Shown: one piece after another, positions 4,414-12,487 of the stretch
Position numbering within the stretch: the stretch's first letter is position 1
Layout of the letters: the number at the start of each line of letters is the position of its first letter
Source: Candidatus Brocadiaceae bacterium
GTDB taxonomy: Bacteria; Planctomycetota; Brocadiia; Brocadiales; Brocadiaceae
Direction: 5' to 3'
Length of the DNA stretch: 34,222 nt
Assembly (NCBI GenBank): GCA_015661205.1
Contig: JACVXV010000017.1
Span: 1 to 34,222 of the forward strand
Program-made: the position numbers and the translations under genes
Notes under the pieces: model-generated
Databases searched by the model: none
What the model was told of the DNA's origin: nothing
What the model saw: only the letters and a program-made list of their open reading frames with translations

Positions 4414-5886
4414 TTAACACGTATGCCCTTTAGCAACCTTTTTGTAAAGCGCTAAGTATTCCTTTGCGCTTCTTTCCCATGACCAGTCTTGCGCCATTCC
4501 ATTTTTCATAAGCCTTTGCCACGGGTCTTTTTTTCTAAACAAATCGATTGCCCTTACCAGCGTTGCAAAAAGCAAATCTGCGCTATACTCTTTAAACAAA
4601 AACCCGTTCACCCGCCCGCCGTCAACCGGTTCTGAGCGAACGTCGATAATCGTGTCGGCAAGCCCCCCGGTACTTCTAACAATAGGTACCGTCCCGTATT
4701 TCAGGCTGTATAACTGATTCAATCCACACGGCTCGTAGTGAGACGGCATCAAGAACACATCGGCCCCGGCCTCTATCTCATGTGCCGATGGTTCGTCAAA
4801 CGTTAATTTTACCGCTACTTTTTCGGGAAAGACCTTCGCGAATCCCTGAAAAATCTCGTGGAACATTGTATCTCCGGAACCTAATAATACGAACTGTATG
4901 TCGAGTTTCATAAAATCATGAAATTTGGCTATGATTAAATCCAGGCCTTTTTGTTTCGCCAAACGGGTTACCATTCCAACGACAGGCACGTCTCGTTCCG
5001 GGAGTTTATACGTCCTTTGCAGGGATTTTTTACAAAGTTGCTTTCCAGCAAGCTTTTTTATGCCATAATTGGCAATAATATATTTATCGGTTTCCGGGTT
5101 CCAAATGGTATAGTCAATCCCGTTTATAATACCATAGAGGTCTTTCGAGCGTTCATGCAGCACGCCTTGTAAACCGTCGCCACATTCCATGGTCTGGATT
5201 TCTTCAGCATACGTTTTACTGACGGTCGAAATGGCGTCGCTAAAGACAATGCCCCCCTTAAGAAAATTCAATTGTCCGTAGAATTCCAGTTGTTTCCAGT
5301 TGAAAAGAGACCGGTCTAATCCCGTCAAGTCCATGTCGGATTTACCGAAACGTCCCTGATATACGAGATTATGCAGGGTCTGTAGCGACTTTGTGTTTCG
5401 AAAACATGCTTTGCCGGCATACGTCGTTTTTAAATACACGGGAACAAGCCCGGTCTGCCAATCGTTACAGTGCACGACGTCGGGATGCACCTTTAATTGC
5501 TCTATAACTTCCAGGGCGCCTCTTGCAAAGAAAATGAAACGCTCGCTATTGTCCGGAAAGTCGTTCGTTGTGCCGGGGTAGTTGTACAACCCCATCCGGT
5601 CAAAATACCGTTCACTTTCCAGGAAATAAACGGGCACATGCGTATCGGGTAAAAACCCTTTATGAACGCCTCCTATATTAACCCTATCGCCAATTTTTAC
5701 CTCAAACTGTATATCGATTTTTTCCAACGAATGCTTATCGGCCTTTACGTTTCCATAAAAGGGGGTAATTACGATAACCTCTGCGCCAAGCTTTTTTAAG
5801 CTTTGCGGCAACGCCCCCGATACATCCGCCAAGCCGCCAGTCTTTGAAAATGGCGCAACCTCCGGCGATAAATAGACAACCTTCAA
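4414..5886 (-). CDS. glgA: Glycogen synthase, ADP-glucose dependent (GT5)
   Basis: GlgA adds glucose from ADP-glucose to the non-reducing end of alpha-1,4-glucan. The 490-residue protein has the two-domain GT-B layout of the GT5 family. It begins with K15 in SKTGGLADV (the ADP-glucose loop) and has H139 in [11 protein letters not shown]308 and K313 in [10 protein letters not shown], and the acidic residue E385 in [11 protein letters not shown] followed by STGGLADT. The start is set by the 4-base overlap with the upstream galT-like gene, a sign of translational coupling. The last codons (G-H-T-C-stop) and the stop are contributed by the outer arm of the palindromic element that follows, so the native C-terminus may have been slightly altered. 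The call is certain from the motifs. Confidence 0.97.
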
Positions 5887-6908
5887 TGATATTTCTCCGT
5901 TAATGGTTTCTCAATATTTGCATCTCTAAGAAACTCTGCGGCGCTTTCCGGTGTGACCGTATTTATATAAAAACCGGTTCCCCATTCAAACCCTGCAATC
6001 TTTGTCAACCGAGGAATAATTTCAATATGCCAGTGATAGTGTTCCACTTCACCGAAGGCAAATGGAGTCGTGTGTATTATGTAATTATAGGGTGGAAATT
6101 CCAATGCGATCTCCAGCTTGAAAAGCACCGTGCGTAACACTTGCGCCAATTCTCCAATCTCCATCTTTTGTAAATTTTCAAAATGTGACGAGTGATTCTT
6201 GGGTAAAATCCAAATTTCAAAGGGAAAACGCGAGGCATAAGGGGCAAACGCCAGGAAATTATCGCCTTCAAACACAATCCTAACTCCCGCAGATAACTCT
6301 TGTTGCACCATATCGCAAAAGAGGCATCGTCCTCTATACTTGTAAAAATCCATACAACCATCCATCTCATGCTTAACCGATATGGGGACAATCGGCGTGA
6401 CAATGAGCTGTGAGTGGGAATGCTCCAAAGAAGCGCCTGCCGTTACGCCAACGTTTTTAAAGATCAATCCGGAAACAAATCGCCTGTCTTTTTTGAGATC
6501 AACAAGCCGGTCCCGGTAAGCCCACAACACCTCTTCGACCTGTGGGTTACTCAGTTCGGCCAAAGAAATAATATGCTTCGGGCTTTCAATAATCACCTCA
6601 TGCGCGCCGATACCGTTCATGGTATCGTAGATGCCCTCGCCGTGTTTGTTTAAGTTGCCTTCTATCCTCAGTGCGGGGAACTTATTGGACACCACCCTTA
6701 CGCGCCATCCCTTTTCGTTTGCCAGGGTTCCCTTTTCCCTGTATGCAATAATTTCCGGCGGCGTTTTATCTTCATTTCCTTCACAAAAAGGGCAGAAGCC
6801 GCCTTTAATAGGCTGCGGTCCTGATTTAAAATCACTCGGACGTGTAGACCTTTCTGTAGCAATTATTATCCAACGCCCGGAAACGGGATCTTTGCGAAGC
6901 TCAGGCAT
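5883..6908 (-). CDS. GalT-family nucleotidylyltransferase (UDP-Glc:Gal-1-P uridylyltransferase or ADP-glucose phosphorylase)
   Basis: This 341-residue HIT-superfamily protein is of the GalT type. C39 and C42 (FCPFC), H112 and H163 correspond to the zinc site of the family, and H165 in HSHSQ (163-167) is the expected nucleophile that carries the nucleotidyl group. The C-terminal half has the second metal and HWHIEIIPR motif. GAGGAGG before the ATG is a strong ribosome site. The classic product is UTP-hexose-1-phosphate exchange in galactose use, but no other Leloir gene is near and the gene overlaps glgA by four bases. The active-site HSHSQ differs from the HPHGQ of enteric GalT. A GalT homologue in Arabidopsis acts as an ADP-glucose adenylyltransferase, which would fit this operon better; that is inference, so I leave the symbol empty. 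Confidence 0.85.
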
Positions 6909-7104: not shown

Positions 7105-9249
7105 TCAAAATCCTTTGACGGCCGGAACTCTTTGAATTATCTCTTCATCCCTCACCAACTCAACAAAAAATTCGATTTCAACGTTAGGAAGCAATCCCAA
7201 ATCGGCAAAAGCGCACGACAACTCCAATATTTTATCTAAAAAGATAGTATCAAAATATTTTTCGACAGACACCTGGTTACTGTTTTTAATCTTAAACCTG
7301 AGCGGTTTATCGGAAAAGCTTGACGTTAGTATTTGCATCTCGGTAGGCTGAACAAAGGTAATCACACATTTCCCATTTTTTCTATATTGAGAAAAAGCCT
7401 CCTTGTCAAAACCTAATCTGATACATAAATTATTAACGTCAAATCCAAAATACATTTCCTTAATCGGCTGCCCGGAGGTCCTGTGCATTGCATCCATATC
7501 CTTACCCACGGTGTAAACGCCTGCGCTCAACCATTCGAAATAATTGCTTACAACCCCGTCAAGTTTGATTTCCAAAAACCCCGTGGGAAGCGTATAAGGC
7601 TTTCTTCTGTCAGCCTTTGCCGCAACGGGGACATCCAATACCTTTGGATAATCCACGTTCAGCAATTTATATACGTTTTTTAAATGTATCCGGAATAAAC
7701 TGTCAAACTCGTTCTTATAGGCGGTGAAATGGTCGTCACCAAACCACCAAAACCAGTCACTTCCTTCTGCAATAAAAACTTCGTCCCATGCATCGGCAAT
7801 AATTTTATTTCCAACGGGAAGCATTGTGCCTTCTGTATGTTTTACTAAAAAAGACCGCGTATTTTCCAATAAATCCCACGCCATGTTTTTTTCCTCATGT
7901 CCGATCCATGTCGCCAGATTATGCCCGATCCACGAGCCGGGGCTAATGTGATGGAGCGTGTGTTCCGGCGGATGGGCGTCTATATAATCACCGATCCGAA
8001 CGCACTCCACGTCAGGACAGGAGCTTATCGTTTCATAAAGCTTGCGCAAGAAATCCAAACCGCTGTTAGGGTAATACTCCCAGGCGTTTTCTCCATCCAA
8101 AATAATCGTCACGAGAAGCGGCCTTCCGTTGTTGTCGTACTTCTTCAAACTATCAAGCCTGCCCATGAAATTGGACACCGCAGCATCCACGGAATACTTT
8201 GAGTATTGAAACCCAATTAGGTCGGAAAGATTATGGTCACGAAACACCATATTCACCGAGTGGTCACCGACACAGACGCGATACGGCTTGTACAAGATTT
8301 CCGGGGTTACAACGTCGCCATATTCATTTCTCCGTATTTTACTATCGAGAGAACAATCCAGGATTTCTTCGTCAGACGCCAGCCAGTTGATTCCTGCCGC
8401 GGCCACAATGGGAATAACGTTGTCGCTTACAGCACCTTCGGAAGGCCACATGCCCCGCGGTTTTTGCCCAAAATGTCTTTCATAGGCCTGTACCGCCCTT
8501 TGCACGTGAAATTTAGCATCTTCACCAGCAAGCATTCTTTTCTTGGGCAGCAACAATCTCGGTAAAACAACCTGCGCCGATTCCTGGTTACATAACAAGG
8601 GTAAAATAGGATGATAATAGGGAGACGTTGTCACCTCGATTTGCTTCATGTATTGTAATCGTTTGTGCAGCGGGATGACCTGTCTGATTACTTCTATCTG
8701 TCGTGACAGAACGTATTCTTTATCCTCCTGCGTAAAGCCTTCACCTTTCTTAAACAGCTCAATCAGCGCCGTATCCTGCCGAACAACTAACGGGTGATAC
8801 CAGGTGAGGTTTGCCCACACTTGCAGGTCTTGAAAATCACTGTCGGAAAAATCCTTAAGAACGTCCTTGGGCCGTTTTCTTCTGAAATTTCTTTTCTGTA
8901 ATAATTCTTTATATCTCGGATACGGCTCAATCATATTTTGATGATTTGCGGAGAAGAAATTATCTAATATCCAGAGTTTGTCGCTTTCCGCTAAATCATA
9001 AGGAGCTAATTTTGTTAACCTCCAGAATAAATCGGTGGCATGGTTTTCTCCGTAATCTACGATCTGTTCTAACAAACATCCTACATAATTGAAGGTTTGG
9101 CGGACTTTGGGGAATTCTTCTAAAAGCAACGCCATGCCAATGTAATCCTTTATCGCGTGCAGCCTTACCCAGGGCATAGAGTATTCGCCGGTTAGATTAT
9201 TCTTGTAATACGGTTGATGTTGGTGCCAGTAAAATGCGACGTTAATCAT
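7105..9249 (-). CDS. Glycoside hydrolase family 57 alpha-glucan enzyme
   Basis: This 714-residue GH57 enzyme has the N-terminal WHQHQPYY (8-14) signature, the catalytic nucleophile E271 in MWPSEGAVSD and the acid/base D385 in ILDGENAWEYY; both residues are present. The first roughly 400 residues form the catalytic barrel. A helical region follows, and the C-terminal roughly 180 residues look beta-rich, as in the accessory domain of amylopullulanase-like members. GH57 enzymes cut or transfer alpha-1,4 or alpha-1,6 bonds (amylase, amylopullulanase, glucanotransferase, branching enzyme). The motifs resemble the amylase/amylopullulanase group more than branching enzyme, but I cannot fix the specificity. 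No signal peptide is seen, so it acts on cytoplasmic glycogen. It lies 22 bases after the cytochrome gene. Confidence 0.93.
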   Translation of the reverse strand: MINVAFYWHQHQPYYKNNLTGEYSMPWVRLHAIKDYIGMALLLEEFPKVRQTFNYVGCLLEQIVDYGENHATDLFWRLTKLAPYDLAESDKLWILDNFFSANHQNMIEPYPRYKELLQKRNFRRKRPKDVLKDFSDSDFQDLQVWANLTWYHPLVVRQDTALIELFKKGEGFTQEDKEYVLSRQIEVIRQVIPLHKRLQYMKQIEVTTSPYYHPILPLLCNQESAQVVLPRLLLPKKRMLAGEDAKFHVQRAVQAYERHFGQKPRGMWPSEGAVSDNVIPIVAAAGINWLASDEEILDCSLDSKIRRNEYGDVVTPEILYKPYRVCVGDHSVNMVFRDHNLSDLIGFQYSKYSVDAAVSNFMGRLDSLKKYDNNGRPLLVTIILDGENAWEYYPNSGLDFLRKLYETISSCPDVECVRIGDYIDAHPPEHTLHHISPGSWIGHNLATWIGHEEKNMAWDLLENTRSFLVKHTEGTMLPVGNKIIADAWDEVFIAEGSDWFWWFGDDHFTAYKNEFDSLFRIHLKNVYKLLNVDYPKVLDVPVAAKADRRKPYTLPTGFLEIKLDGVVSNYFEWLSAGVYTVGKDMDAMHRTSGQPIKEMYFGFDVNNLCIRLGFDKEAFSQYRKNGKCVITFVQPTEMQILTSSFSDKPLRFKIKNSNQVSVEKYFDTIFLDKILELSCAFADLGLLPNVEIEFFVELVRDEEIIQRVPAVKGF

Positions 9250-9271: not shown

Positions 9272-10624
9272 TTAATTCAGTTTTTTTAAAATTTCTTCGG
9301 GGTGCTTGATCTTTTCCCAATATTCATCAAATTTGAATTTTACACTATGCTCACTATCATGGCACGTAACGCACCGGCCTTCACCCGCGGAGCGGTGTTT
9401 ATAGGCCGTATCATTAACGTTTGCAATATGCAGGCTTCCGGCGCCGTGGCAACTTTCACATCCGACGTCTATCAAATATTTATTCTCTTTCTCAGACAGA
9501 AACCCGGAAACGTAACCATAGCCGGTGGTATGGCACGCAATACATTCGGGGTCAAATTGCTGTCCCATAGCCACTAGGGTATTATAAGCCGCGCCATGCC
9601 TTGTTTTAAGCCAATGGAGGTATACTGCCTTATGGCATATACCGCAGGACGCGCTCCCCACGTATGACGCTCCGTCTTGAAGGGGCTCCTGCACCGTTTT
9701 ACCCAGCAAATCTTCGTCAATCAACATCTGCTGATATTCCTTCAACAATGAAGCCATTCCCGGTGAATCCTTTTGAGCATGACCCAACGGCATAAGGGAG
9801 ACGGACTTCCTCGTTAGACCGGCTTTATCCATAGAATACGTAACAACACCAAGATGTTTGCCCTTTGTGCCTGCGGTAACGATTAACGTGTTGTTAAGGT
9901 ACGTTACGGCATCCTCCGGCTCATCGATGCCGTGTCCGGTAATAATCAAGGCTATTTCCGGGAACAATTTTGCAATTTCAATAGACTCTTCAAGCGGCGC
10001 ATGAGAAAGCAAAACAATGAGGTCCACACTACCGCGTAAATCTTTTACAAGCGGCCTTAATGCCTCTACCGGGTCATGAACGTTTACACCATCGGAGAAA
10101 TGCTCACTTATCAGGGATTTCGATACAATCCCTATAAAAGCTATTTTACAAGGCCGTGCAGCGCCGGAACACTCTTTTACAAGGAATTGATTACGTTCCA
10201 AAGGAAGCTGGTCGGCAAACTCAACGTTACCGGAGAGAAACTTCACCTTATACGCTTGCGATAAATAACTCATTAACGGCAGCCCGATTTCAAGGTCTTT
10301 TTCACCGAGGTTATGCGCCACGTAACCCATTTCATCCATTGCACGGCACAGCATCTCCGTTTTGATCTCTTGTTGCCTCCCAAAGCCTTTCGGCAAATCC
10401 CCCAAACTTACGGGTATCACCGTCTTTTTCTGCTTTCTCAACGAATCAATCAGAGCGCCTCGGCGGGAAATCCCTCCTATCTGCCCTTCGAAGCAACCGC
10501 AGGGTTCAAGGCTACCCAGTTCTTCACCGGAAAACACGATCAAAACTTCACCGGAAGAGGCATAAATGCTTGCAGGCAAGAAAAGAATTAAAAACAACAA
10601 AAGATACTTGAAGATCACACCCAT
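9272..10624 (-). CDS. Exported phosphoesterase-like protein with C-terminal tetrahaem cytochrome domain
   Basis: From the ATG at 10624 the protein has 450 residues; an upstream TTG at 10663 is less likely because the signal peptide (MGVIFKYLLLFLILFLPAS) begins at this ATG. The N-terminal half resembles the calcineurin-like phosphoesterase/5'-nucleotidase fold in the subfamily with LEPCGCFEGQIGGISRRG. SLGDLP, LLSHAP and ITGHGID remain, but the usual D-x-H and GNHE ligands are replaced (SGEELG, LGEKDL), so metal binding may be lost. The C-terminal part holds four CxxCH haem motifs (CGICH, CIACH, CESCH, CVTCH) in a cytochrome c554-like arrangement starting at YVGSASCGICH. It should be exported and carry four c-type haems. 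It heads the glycogen block, 22 bases before the GH57 gene. Its redox partner is unknown. Confidence 0.88.
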   Translation of the reverse strand: MGVIFKYLLLFLILFLPASIYASSGEVLIVFSGEELGSLEPCGCFEGQIGGISRRGALIDSLRKQKKTVIPVSLGDLPKGFGRQQEIKTEMLCRAMDEMGYVAHNLGEKDLEIGLPLMSYLSQAYKVKFLSGNVEFADQLPLERNQFLVKECSGAARPCKIAFIGIVSKSLISEHFSDGVNVHDPVEALRPLVKDLRGSVDLIVLLSHAPLEESIEIAKLFPEIALIITGHGIDEPEDAVTYLNNTLIVTAGTKGKHLGVVTYSMDKAGLTRKSVSLMPLGHAQKDSPGMASLLKEYQQMLIDEDLLGKTVQEPLQDGASYVGSASCGICHKAVYLHWLKTRHGAAYNTLVAMGQQFDPECIACHTTGYGYVSGFLSEKENKYLIDVGCESCHGAGSLHIANVNDTAYKHRSAGEGRCVTCHDSEHSVKFKFDEYWEKIKHPEEILKKLN

Positions 10625-10811
10625 AGATATTTTTAGATTATTACAGCAACGAATTAACCCCAATACGGCAACCGTAAGTTGCGATTAACACAAAATCGAA
10701 TATCGAACAAGGAATAACGAATGTCGAATGATATCCGTATCCATACTTCATAAATTCGAAATTCCTTACATAGTTAAATACAGTGAAAACCCTATATTAT
10801 CAATATACTCA
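10625..10811. repeat. Short gap with a CGAA-rich degenerate repeat
   Basis: Around 10694-10735 the motif TCGAA recurs within a short span, with AAGGAATAACGAA between copies. This resembles a dispersed intergenic repeat of environmental bacterial genomes. I see no gene and no T-tailed hairpin. Confidence 0.4.
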
Positions 10812-11348
10812 CTACCACACTCTTGGTTTAAACCCTTTGTCGTTTAAGATTTTCACACTCTCTTCCCCACTTTGTGCTATCACAAACATCCCCTTTTTGT
10901 ATGCGTATCTTTCCGCCCCTTCTTCTATTAAAATCCCTCCTACGGCGCCTATCACATTTCTGTCTTTATATTCCGGGAAAAAATACTTGAATTTATTCAA
11001 CCTTTCCTCATGTTCCTGCACGTCCTCTATTTTTAAAGTGCTTTTTGCCTCTACGAGCACCGCATATTTTCCATCAATTGCCAAAATATCTATTTCTATG
11101 GTGTTTCCATCCTTGTGTGTTTTTATCCTTTGATATACTTTATCTACCACTATACCTCGCGCCTTAAATAGCTTTTCTACTGCGGGCGCAATCAACCCCT
11201 CAACAAACTTACTCCACTTACCGGTAAGGTCGCCAACGACCTTTAAGGTGTTTTCAATTTTTTTATCCGTTTCTTTAAATCTTTTATCCGTTTCTCTATA
11301 AAGGTCCCATATCTCTTTGAACCCTTTTTCCATTTCTTTCTTTGTCAT
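10812..11348 (-). CDS. Coiled-coil protein with PD-(D/E)XK nuclease-like core
   Basis: The protein has 178 residues from the ATG at 11348; AAAGGGGA about eight bases upstream supports this start over a longer frame that begins at 11387. Residues 1-50 are charged and helical with a repeated pattern (YRETDKRFKETDKKIEN). Residues 75-140 carry the core of the restriction-endonuclease fold: E85-I-D87 in NTIEIDILAI and E100-A-K102 in YAVLVEAKSTL. This architecture is common in families of predicted nucleases of unknown role that are often present in several copies in cyanobacteria and planctomycetes. The likely active-site residues are all present, so catalysis is possible. A housekeeping or defence role cannot be told from context. 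It lies 104 bases after the DUF1573 gene on the same strand. Confidence 0.72.
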   Translation of the reverse strand: MTKKEMEKGFKEIWDLYRETDKRFKETDKKIENTLKVVGDLTGKWSKFVEGLIAPAVEKLFKARGIVVDKVYQRIKTHKDGNTIEIDILAIDGKYAVLVEAKSTLKIEDVQEHEERLNKFKYFFPEYKDRNVIGAVGGILIEEGAERYAYKKGMFVIAQSGEESVKILNDKGFKPRVW

Positions 11349-11452
11349 AGTAATTTCCCCTTTACAACCTCTGGAGACGCACACCATGTTTTCTCAGGGT
11401 TTCTGAATTGAAATTATATTTTACGTCAATTAAAAAATGAGAATGGTATCCC

Positions 11453-12487
11453 TTATTCTTTAACCTCACCATTAATCGGAATACTGATAACCGGTTGAAC
11501 GCTACTCGTGGTATATATCTTTATACCACCGGTAATCTTACCGAGCGGGCGATTGTCACCCAGGATAATTTCCAACCTTTTACTCTTTTTGTTTAAATCA
11601 GATAGCGCATGCTTTATAAAATCGGGATGTACTTCAACCTTCTCTATTTTCACGTCACTATTTACCAGATTAATAATTACGGTCCTTTTTGACTCCAGCT
11701 TTTGTTTAATAGTGCCGAAAGACACCGCTTCAGGATAAAAGGTTAAGTCACCAATAGCCTCGCCGGAAAAGGGAACGTCTACCCTTTCCTGCCTGGCGCC
11801 GGTCGTGTATACAAAGATCATTCCATTATAATTCCCGATATAGTCATACTTGTTGAACGTTATCTGATAAACACTGGAATCATCAGCACCATCCTTATCC
11901 TTAGAAATAGTTAGGTAAGGACTGGGTGACTCCACCTTCGTTACCTGGATATTCAGCCCAGTGAGCGGTTTAATTTCCAACGTCTTTGTAACCGAATCCC
12001 CTTTTCGGCTGGTTCCAAAGTTAATTCGCCGTGGATTAACAACAACCTCTTCAATTATAACACCTGAAATCGTAAGCTTATACGTGGGCGTTTCGGGGTC
12101 GTTTGAATTTACCGTGACCGTCTTTGAAACCTTGCCCACGAATTTTCCCGGATTAAACTTTACATCTATCTCACCGGACTCATTGCTGAGCAATTTATCC
12201 TTCGATACCAGAGCGGCAGTGCATCCACAGGAAGTCTTGACGCTATTTATTATCAACTCCCCTTTCCCGGCATTTTGGAATTTAAACTTATACGTAACAA
12301 CGTCTCCTCCAAAAATCTTACCAAAATCATACACCTGCTTTTCAAAGGATATTTTCGGTTTTTCAGCCAGTTTTTCAACCTTATCCACAACGTTAGTCGT
12401 GTCGCCTTCGCCGGCTATTGCTAAATCAGAAAACCCAAAACCAACGGCAAATACGGTCGAAATTAAGTATATTTTCAATTCTTTCAT
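11453..12487 (-). CDS. Exported DUF1573 protein, Ig-like repeats
   Basis: This 344-residue protein has an N-terminal signal peptide (positive start, hydrophobic 6-18, likely cut after AIAG near 26). Residues 45-150 form a DUF1573 domain with the typical start ISFEKQVYDFGKI and the conserved KTSCGCTAA motif (C87, C89), then NSNDPETP. Two more Ig-like beta repeats follow (ASPM-SPD2-Hydin type), each opening with a phrase like INFGT or VSFGTI. DUF1573 proteins are abundant in planctomycetes and Bacteroidetes; their job is not established and they probably bind other cell-envelope proteins. The GGAG ribosome site lies ten bases before the ATG. It is not clearly part of an operon with the nuclease-like gene. 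Confidence 0.85.
   Translation of the reverse strand: MKELKIYLISTVFAVGFGFSDLAIAGEGDTTNVVDKVEKLAEKPKISFEKQVYDFGKIFGGDVVTYKFKFQNAGKGELIINSVKTSCGCTAALVSKDKLLSNESGEIDVKFNPGKFVGKVSKTVTVNSNDPETPTYKLTISGVIIEEVVVNPRRINFGTSRKGDSVTKTLEIKPLTGLNIQVTKVESPSPYLTISKDKDGADDSSVYQITFNKYDYIGNYNGMIFVYTTGARQERVDVPFSGEAIGDLTFYPEAVSFGTIKQKLESKRTVIINLVNSDVKIEKVEVHPDFIKHALSDLNKKSKRLEIILGDNRPLGKITGGIKIYTTSSVQPVISIPINGEVKE

Follow-up and report, generated by a model that had tools for sequence, protein, structure and literature searches.

The metal site of E. coli UshA is built, as we take it, from D41, H43, D84, N116, H217, H252 and Q254, with H117 as the catalytic residue. SoxB, a thiosulfohydrolase, is periplasmic and acts on an Ig-like partner that carries a cysteine, and cytochrome c554 of Nitrosomonas has three bis-His haems and one open haem. 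A family of UshA-like proteins, modelled as NF041198 (UshA-like (seleno)protein, UshA_like_PCGU), has been published as a selenocysteine (Sec) family with the motif CxU (PMC2398784, PMC13188914). The second paper lists DUF1573 itself as a Sec family, with the motif UGC, and gives the motif CxxU for UshA-like (seleno)protein family 2 (NF049981), which differs from the PCGC of the protein described below (PMC13188914).

This protein is encoded in a stretch of 34,222 nucleotides (the window; contig JACVXV010000017.1, positions 1 to 34,222) from a Candidatus Brocadiaceae bacterium. It belongs to a known but functionally uncharacterised family, and its architecture, its relatives and its gene neighbours were compared with the systems above.

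Architecture of the protein

The gene lies on the minus strand (Table 1), opening with ATG at 10624 and ending with a stop codon at 9274..9272. A longer frame would start from TTG at 10663; we favour the ATG, since a hydrophobic, signal-peptide-like stretch begins there and aligns with the ATG starts chosen for the relatives. A sequence-only reading of this DNA had described an exported phosphoesterase-like domain and four haem sites in one protein. Both are present, together with the signal-peptide-like start, all four CxxCH motifs are intact, and the 22 bases that were counted between the stop of this gene and the start of the GH57 gene are exact.

The protein scores 282.7 bits against NF041198 (curated cut-off 275), and at E 5.2e-84 the match to this whole-protein family is therefore not due to chance. 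Positions 354-518 of the 519 in the model are the haem region, which is covered by the second match stretch of the window protein; the fusion of the two halves is therefore the family's own architecture. The proposal that the protein would be a novel electron carrier thus did not hold, as this architecture has already been modelled and relatives are found across several phyla. The likeness to NF041198 consists in the PCGC motif and the tetrahaem C-terminal half, whereas the window protein differs in having Cys in place of Sec, in an E-D-E-H-H pocket (E34, D76, E108, H208 and H231) and in the Brocadiales setting of its gene, with DUF1573 upstream and glycogen genes downstream. The match to NF049981 is weak (27.9 bits against a cut-off of 140, residues 42-122 of the 463-aa frame).

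Relatives were collected by a scan of named genomes, in a search seeded from haem-region patterns alone. The best 80 of at least 500 confirmed relatives were aligned with the window protein, and all members of this set (81/81) match the NF041198 model at 1e-5 or better. Among the matches listed, the closest relatives come from Brocadiaceae, which are anammox bacteria, and the relatives span Planctomycetota, Armatimonadota, Verrucomicrobiota and others. The hosts of the best 80 include Ca. Brocadia, Jettenia, Kuenenia, Scalindua and Anammoxibacter, and also Pirellulales, Armatimonadota, Verrucomicrobiales, a Poribacterium and a TA06 bacterium.

The haem region of the window protein matches PF13435 (Cytochrome_C554) with 54.4 bits (gathering cut-off 20.8), and the family profile matches Nitrosomonas cytochrome c554 (1bvb) with E 1.3e-24, the four CxxCH motifs aligning in order. 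The order of these motifs is thus shared with c554, but in the window protein the haem domain is fused behind a nucleotidase fold, and the c554 equivalog model NF043010 is not reached (39.8 bits vs 400). The haem sites are intact in 80/80 of the best 80 relatives, a count that is biased by selection at sites 2 and 3 since both were part of the search patterns. Beyond the histidines of the CxxCH motifs, H343, H399 and H441 are invariant in the same 80 relatives; in 12 of 13 Sec copies of the family a Cys stands at the third of these positions, perhaps through misalignment at the end of the protein. By analogy with c554, three invariant extra histidines would be enough for three bis-His haems and leave one haem open, probably that of site 2, whose c554 counterpart is presumably the five-coordinate haem.

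An AlphaFold model of the window protein, built from this protein and the best 80 relatives, has a pLDDT of 93.1 and a pTM of 0.92. The predicted N-terminal domain matches 5'-nucleotidases with Z about 30-32 (for the T. thermophilus enzyme, 2z1a, Z 32.2 over 276 residues at 2.6 A), in agreement with the phosphoesterase fold that had been read from the sequence. The fold is shared with SoxB as well (Z 28.8, 281 residues, 3.5 A); against the SoxB model TIGR04486 the protein scores 54.5 bits, where the cut-off is 550.

Alignment to E. coli UshA showed that D84, H217 and H252 are kept as D76, H208 and H231, while D41, H43, N116 and Q254 are replaced by E34, L36, E108 and I233 and the catalytic H117 by K109. 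The window protein thus keeps three of the eight catalytic positions (seven ligands and the catalytic His). The loss of the D-x-H and GNHE metal ligands, which had been seen earlier without mention of the three that are kept, was confirmed, and a complete two-metal site, looked for by sequence, is not present, four of the seven ligands being replaced. Among the best 80 relatives none of the eight positions is kept in 6, one in 38, two in 7 and three, the maximum, in 29. No Pfam match to the C-terminal 5'-nucleotidase domain was found in the window protein up to E 0.01, and the C-terminus is occupied by PF13435. In summary, the N-terminal fold and three metal ligands are shared with UshA and the 5'-nucleotidases, and the differences are the PCGC insertion, the replacement of the catalytic His and four ligands and the absence of the C-terminal nucleotidase domain. 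The architecture of an exported, non-canonical phosphoesterase fold joined to a tetrahaem c554-type domain is supported.

Table 1. Features of the locus, with positions numbered along the window
Feature	Position	Strand	Basis
UshA-like tetrahaem protein, NF041198 family, 450 aa	9272..10624	minus	ORF and family profile match
Signal-peptide-like N-terminus, residues 1-22	10559..10624	minus	hydropathy only
5'-Nucleotidase-fold domain, about residues 25-315	9680..10552	minus	predicted structure, UshA alignment
E34, at UshA metal ligand D41	10523..10525	minus	UshA alignment; in E-D-E-H-H set
PCGC motif, residues 41-44	10493..10504	minus	alignments; some relatives have TGA (Sec) for the second Cys
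D76, at UshA bridging ligand D84	10397..10399	minus	UshA alignment; in E-D-E-H-H set
E108, at UshA ligand N116	10301..10303	minus	UshA alignment; in E-D-E-H-H set
H208, at UshA ligand H217	10001..10003	minus	UshA alignment; in E-D-E-H-H set
H231, at UshA ligand H252	9932..9934	minus	UshA alignment; in E-D-E-H-H set
Tetrahaem cytochrome c554-type domain, residues 321-442	9299..9664	minus	PF13435
Haem site 1, CGICH, residue 327	9632..9646	minus	CxxCH motif
Haem site 2, CIACH, residue 361	9530..9544	minus	CxxCH motif
Haem site 3, CESCH, residue 389	9446..9460	minus	CxxCH motif
Haem site 4, CVTCH, residue 418	9359..9373	minus	CxxCH motif
191-aa ORF between DUF1573 and cytochrome genes	10812..11387	minus	ORF list
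DUF1573 protein, three Ig-like (ASH/PapD-like) domains, proposed partner	11453..12487	minus	PF07610, predicted structure
CGC in TSCGCT motif of DUF1573 protein, residues 87-89	12221..12229	minus	sequence motif
GH57 enzyme, first gene of glycogen block	7105..9249	minus	PF03065, E 1.7e-67
GalT-type nucleotidylyltransferase	5883..6908	minus	Pfam match

The PCGC motif and the former metal pocket

Residues 41-44 fall in a stretch that is missing from E. coli UshA in the alignment. Among the best 80 relatives P, C and G of the PCGC motif are present in 80/80 and the second Cys in 79/80, and these counts are unbiased by selection since the search was seeded from haem-region patterns only. The exception is a planctomycete protein, L102, which has PCGF, four intact haem sites and four of the five pocket residues; one member therefore does without the second Cys. 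More distant members carry PCAC, PCDC, VCGC or KCGC. PCGC as a fixed four-letter motif was thus rejected for the wider family, in which only CxC is constant and P or G varies. Among the 76 further frames that were examined, many repeat one gene and those starting just after a TGA are without the motif; two that appear unrelated or misaligned (L154_10285 and L155_3734) were left out as members.

Of the 17 regions retrieved for TGA copies, 13 contain a copy with four CxxCH motifs in which an in-frame TGA stands exactly at the second Cys. SelB was found over its cut-off in 18 of 19 genomes with a TGA copy among the matches listed, and in 36 of the 40 genomes examined, that of the window included; the Sec machinery was therefore rejected as the cause of the choice between Cys and Sec. 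In the genome of the window a full-length SelB is encoded at G000:C19:591-2495, so that selenoproteins may be made there even though the present gene has Cys. In the 54 bases after the TGA a small hairpin can be seen by eye in most of the 13 copies. When SECIS energies were compared with mononucleotide shuffles, 12 of the 13 lay within two standard deviations and that of L154 lay 2.2 below; the hairpins were not counted as evidence for Sec insertion.

In some genomes of the phylum (L156, L157, L158, L160 and others) another family copy, with VCGC and a different pocket, stands immediately behind a PCGU copy, and in L160 the pair sits behind a sigma factor and a zf-HC2 protein. At L131:4315-7886 the family gene stands behind a 931-aa protein without a Pfam match and a 259-aa DUF4159 protein, in place of DUF1573; L123, L132 and L134 have genes of similar size and order.

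Of the 81 aligned members, 26 have all five pocket residues, one (L102) has four and 54 have two or fewer; no member has exactly three. The holders of all five are the window protein, 20/20 Brocadiales, one TA06 bacterium, three Armatimonadota and L085. On a quick midpoint-rooted tree, in which some supports are low, the full set appears in four places, or five with L102. Among the 13 Sec copies, D76, E108 and H208 are kept in 10, most of the copies having another residue at 34 or 231, and three of the five residues are found in 8. The high-scoring distant members L034-L039 have three or four of the five: H208 and H231 are kept, 76 is Asp or Asn and 108 is an acid. An all-or-none rule for the pocket, clear among the 81, is thus broken by the Sec copies and by L034-L039; as the latter still hold most of the pocket, the likelihoods given below were left unchanged. 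In the window's own group the E-D-E-H-H set is suggestive, from these alignments, of a pocket that was rebuilt and did not simply decay.

DUF1573 and the glycogen genes as neighbours

The DUF1573 protein of the window matches PF07610 with 106.8 bits (gathering 26.1), and with 78.8 bits it stays below the cut-off of 100 for NF041425 (OS_HP2). Its predicted structure (pLDDT 89.7) appears to consist of three Ig-like domains of the ASH/PapD type. It gives the one DUF1573 match in the whole genome of the window. Elsewhere, DUF1573 genes were found with a profile seeded from the window protein and five neighbours, all six of which match PF07610. Among the best 80 relatives, a DUF1573 gene lies on the same strand within 1.5 kb in 19/20 Brocadiales and 33/60 others (52/80). 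It is upstream of the cytochrome gene at all 52 loci but L086, and 51 of the 52 proteins contain CxC. At the twentieth Brocadiales locus, L076, a contig end cuts DUF1573.

The pairing was rejected as a universal rule, since DUF1573 was not found within 1.5 kb in 27 of the 60 non-Brocadiales relatives, and the 17 regions retrieved for TGA copies, 13 of them with a PCGU copy, gave no DUF1573 either. Within the best 80 relatives it is present at 25/26 loci with four or five pocket residues and at 27/54 without them; outside Brocadiales the corresponding figures are 6/6 with the pocket set and 27/54 (p 0.03, kinship ignored).

In 33 genomes of the host family both genes occur in 27, and they are adjacent by coordinates in 27/27. 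Neither gene was found in G014, G016, G018 and G027, G008 has DUF1573 only, and G006 has the cytochrome only by Pfam (Fisher p 0.0006 for co-occurrence, kinship ignored). Contig ends explain the missing partner in G006 and may do the same for G027, where the contig stops inside GH57. The DUF1573 gene of G008 is divergent, and the 482 bases left after it were searched and contain no cytochrome match.

In genome G034, from the same order, DUF1573 (with a CDCT motif) and the UshA-like tetrahaem protein form a single 681-aa frame (L031:1492-3534). A check of 117 cytochrome frames, some of them duplicates, gave no second fusion; 56 of 62 genomes of the order match the fused protein, and full-length alignment is seen in G034 alone. 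In G005, G010 and G011 both genes are in one frame with a stop between them.

The 191-aa ORF that separates the two genes in the window has no Pfam match up to E 0.01, and two weak paralogues of it occur elsewhere in the window genome. In 19/19 Brocadiales relatives measured the gap is too short for this ORF, being 5-33 bases in 17 of the loci and 118 and 195 in the other two.

Downstream of the cytochrome gene GalT is found at 19/20 and GH57 at 14/20 of the Brocadiales loci among the best 80 relatives, the recurring order being cytochrome, GH57 or a gap, GalT, GlgA, kinase, regulator and GlgC. At one Brocadiales locus (L075:9350-10586) GH57 is split over several frames; at six others of the 20 it is missing after the cytochrome gene, and five of these still have GalT. 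GH57, GalT and GlgA gave no match at 60/60 non-Brocadiales loci of the best 80, in flanks that reach at most 8 kb and are often shorter. The adjacency of cytochrome and glycogen genes is therefore a Brocadiales arrangement among the loci seen and lies outside the family's basic function, and the genes possibly form one operon. DUF1573 is the older neighbour of the cytochrome gene. The puzzle that had been raised over the glycogen neighbours is thereby eased in part: among the best 80 relatives the glycogen genes follow only in Brocadiales. A scan for promoter-like sites (12 found, where shuffles average 8.1, sd 3.1) and terminator-like sites (1 found, shuffle mean 4.0) gave no usable signal.

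Possible function

The domain architecture, the conservation of CxC, the relatives with TGA in place of the second Cys, the frequent pairing with DUF1573 and the one natural fusion are all observed; we infer in addition that the protein is redox-active, that thiol exchange takes place with DUF1573 and that electrons pass through the haems. We give an even chance to the protein being a periplasmic thiol-to-haem oxidoreductase that works with DUF1573. The old nucleotidase domain would then no longer carry out phosphoesterase chemistry, and the PCGC loop beside the former metal pocket would act as a redox pair, disulfide or dithiol (a selenol in other species). The c554-type tetrahaem domain would move electrons, in either direction, between this pair and the periplasmic cytochrome c pool. 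DUF1573, an Ig-like chain with a CxC of its own, would be the physical partner of the cytochrome and would either present a thiol/disulfide substrate or hand on electrons by thiol exchange. This redox reading is weakened by the absence of DUF1573 near the TGA copies and near the 27 non-Brocadiales relatives of the best 80, by the DUF1573 gene of G008 with no cytochrome match after it and by L102, which has no second Cys. A Cys pair can also bind metal instead of undergoing disulfide cycling, a further point against an oxidoreductase.

The sequence-only reading had taken the degenerate phosphoesterase for a binding module of the tetrahaem cytochrome. A degenerate fold joined to a tetrahaem domain is indeed what is found, with the catalytic His and four of the seven metal ligands lost, two or fewer of the window's pocket residues in 54 of the 81 and all haem sites intact in the 80 relatives (sites 2 and 3 being part of the search patterns). 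That a dead fold merely docks the tetrahaem to a partner, as part of a plain electron carrier, is nevertheless unlikely, and a passive module is made doubtful by the retention of CxC or Sec. The conservation of PCGC (79/80) equals that of the haem sites, distant members keep CxC and others have Sec, which suggests a redox active site rather than a docking surface and is hard to explain for a passive one; the pocket set is also whole in the window's group. This pocket could instead be a rebuilt metal site of E34, D76, E108, H208 and H231, perhaps with C42/C44, that is redox-active or hydrolytic and uses the haems as a wire. The distribution over the 81 members (26 with five residues, one with four, none with three), the four or five places on the tree, the retention of D76, E108 and H208 in 10/13 Sec copies and of H208 and H231 in L034-L039 all speak for it, and Sec or Cys is a metal ligand in formate dehydrogenase and NiFeSe hydrogenase. 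But the all-or-none pattern fails in the Sec copies and L034-L039, and 54 of the 81 have two or fewer of the residues and yet keep CxC and the haems, so that a rebuilt site is not the family's core function; we consider it somewhat less likely than the docking module as the explanation of the protein.

The fold shared with SoxB and the resemblance, by analogy, of its cysteine-carrying Ig-like partner to DUF1573 with CxC invite a further version, a periplasmic system like SoxB/SoxYZ with a cytochrome added and of non-Sox descent. Here the CxC of a DUF1573 carrier would hold substrate or electrons, the UshA-like domain would work on that cargo with an E-D-E-H-H metal pocket beside Cys or Sec, and the tetrahaem, perhaps via one open haem, would take or give electrons; in anammox bacteria the glycogen genes would be co-expressed with this system, glycogen being the store of energy that is drawn on or replenished in the same redox state. 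SoxYZ is absent from the structural matches listed for DUF1573, which proves nothing either way, and DUF1573 resembles ASH/PapD-like domains. Taken as a whole, this version seems quite unlikely. Metal handling, in which both the UshA-like domain and DUF1573 would bind a soft metal such as Cu, Zn or Hg through their CxC pairs and the haems would change its redox state, draws on the presence of CxC in both partners and on the common use of CxC in soft-metal thiolate sites; as there is no metal transporter among the window proteins and sampled neighbours that were scanned, and as Sec substitution favours catalysis, it is very unlikely. A direct role in glycogen metabolism is extremely improbable. 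The gene order does recur in Brocadiales, with GalT downstream at 19/20 loci, and one genome of the same family (G016, 99% complete) has no match to GalT, DUF1573, the nucleotidase half or the full cytochrome protein alike; against this, GH57 is missing at 6/20 Brocadiales loci, GH57, GalT and GlgA have no match at the 60 other loci, and the cytochrome and the glycogen enzymes are in different compartments.

No published work on the function of the protein, the DUF1573 pairing or the E-D-E-H-H pocket was found in the literature covered; the pairing is perhaps already in Haft and Tolstoy 2025, which lies outside that literature and reportedly deals with selenoprotein neighbourhoods. What may be new is the link with DUF1573, including the fusion, and the E-D-E-H-H pocket.

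The family is widespread and is named in selenoproteome lists, and DUF1573 is likewise without a known function. The Cys/Sec pair with its fused tetrahaem, the CxC partner with its natural fusion and the lineage-dependent pocket offer handles for testing the thiol-to-haem oxidoreductase. If true, the link between thiol and haem would be the first function for two orphan selenoprotein families at once, and would add an electron route outside the anammox cytoplasm.
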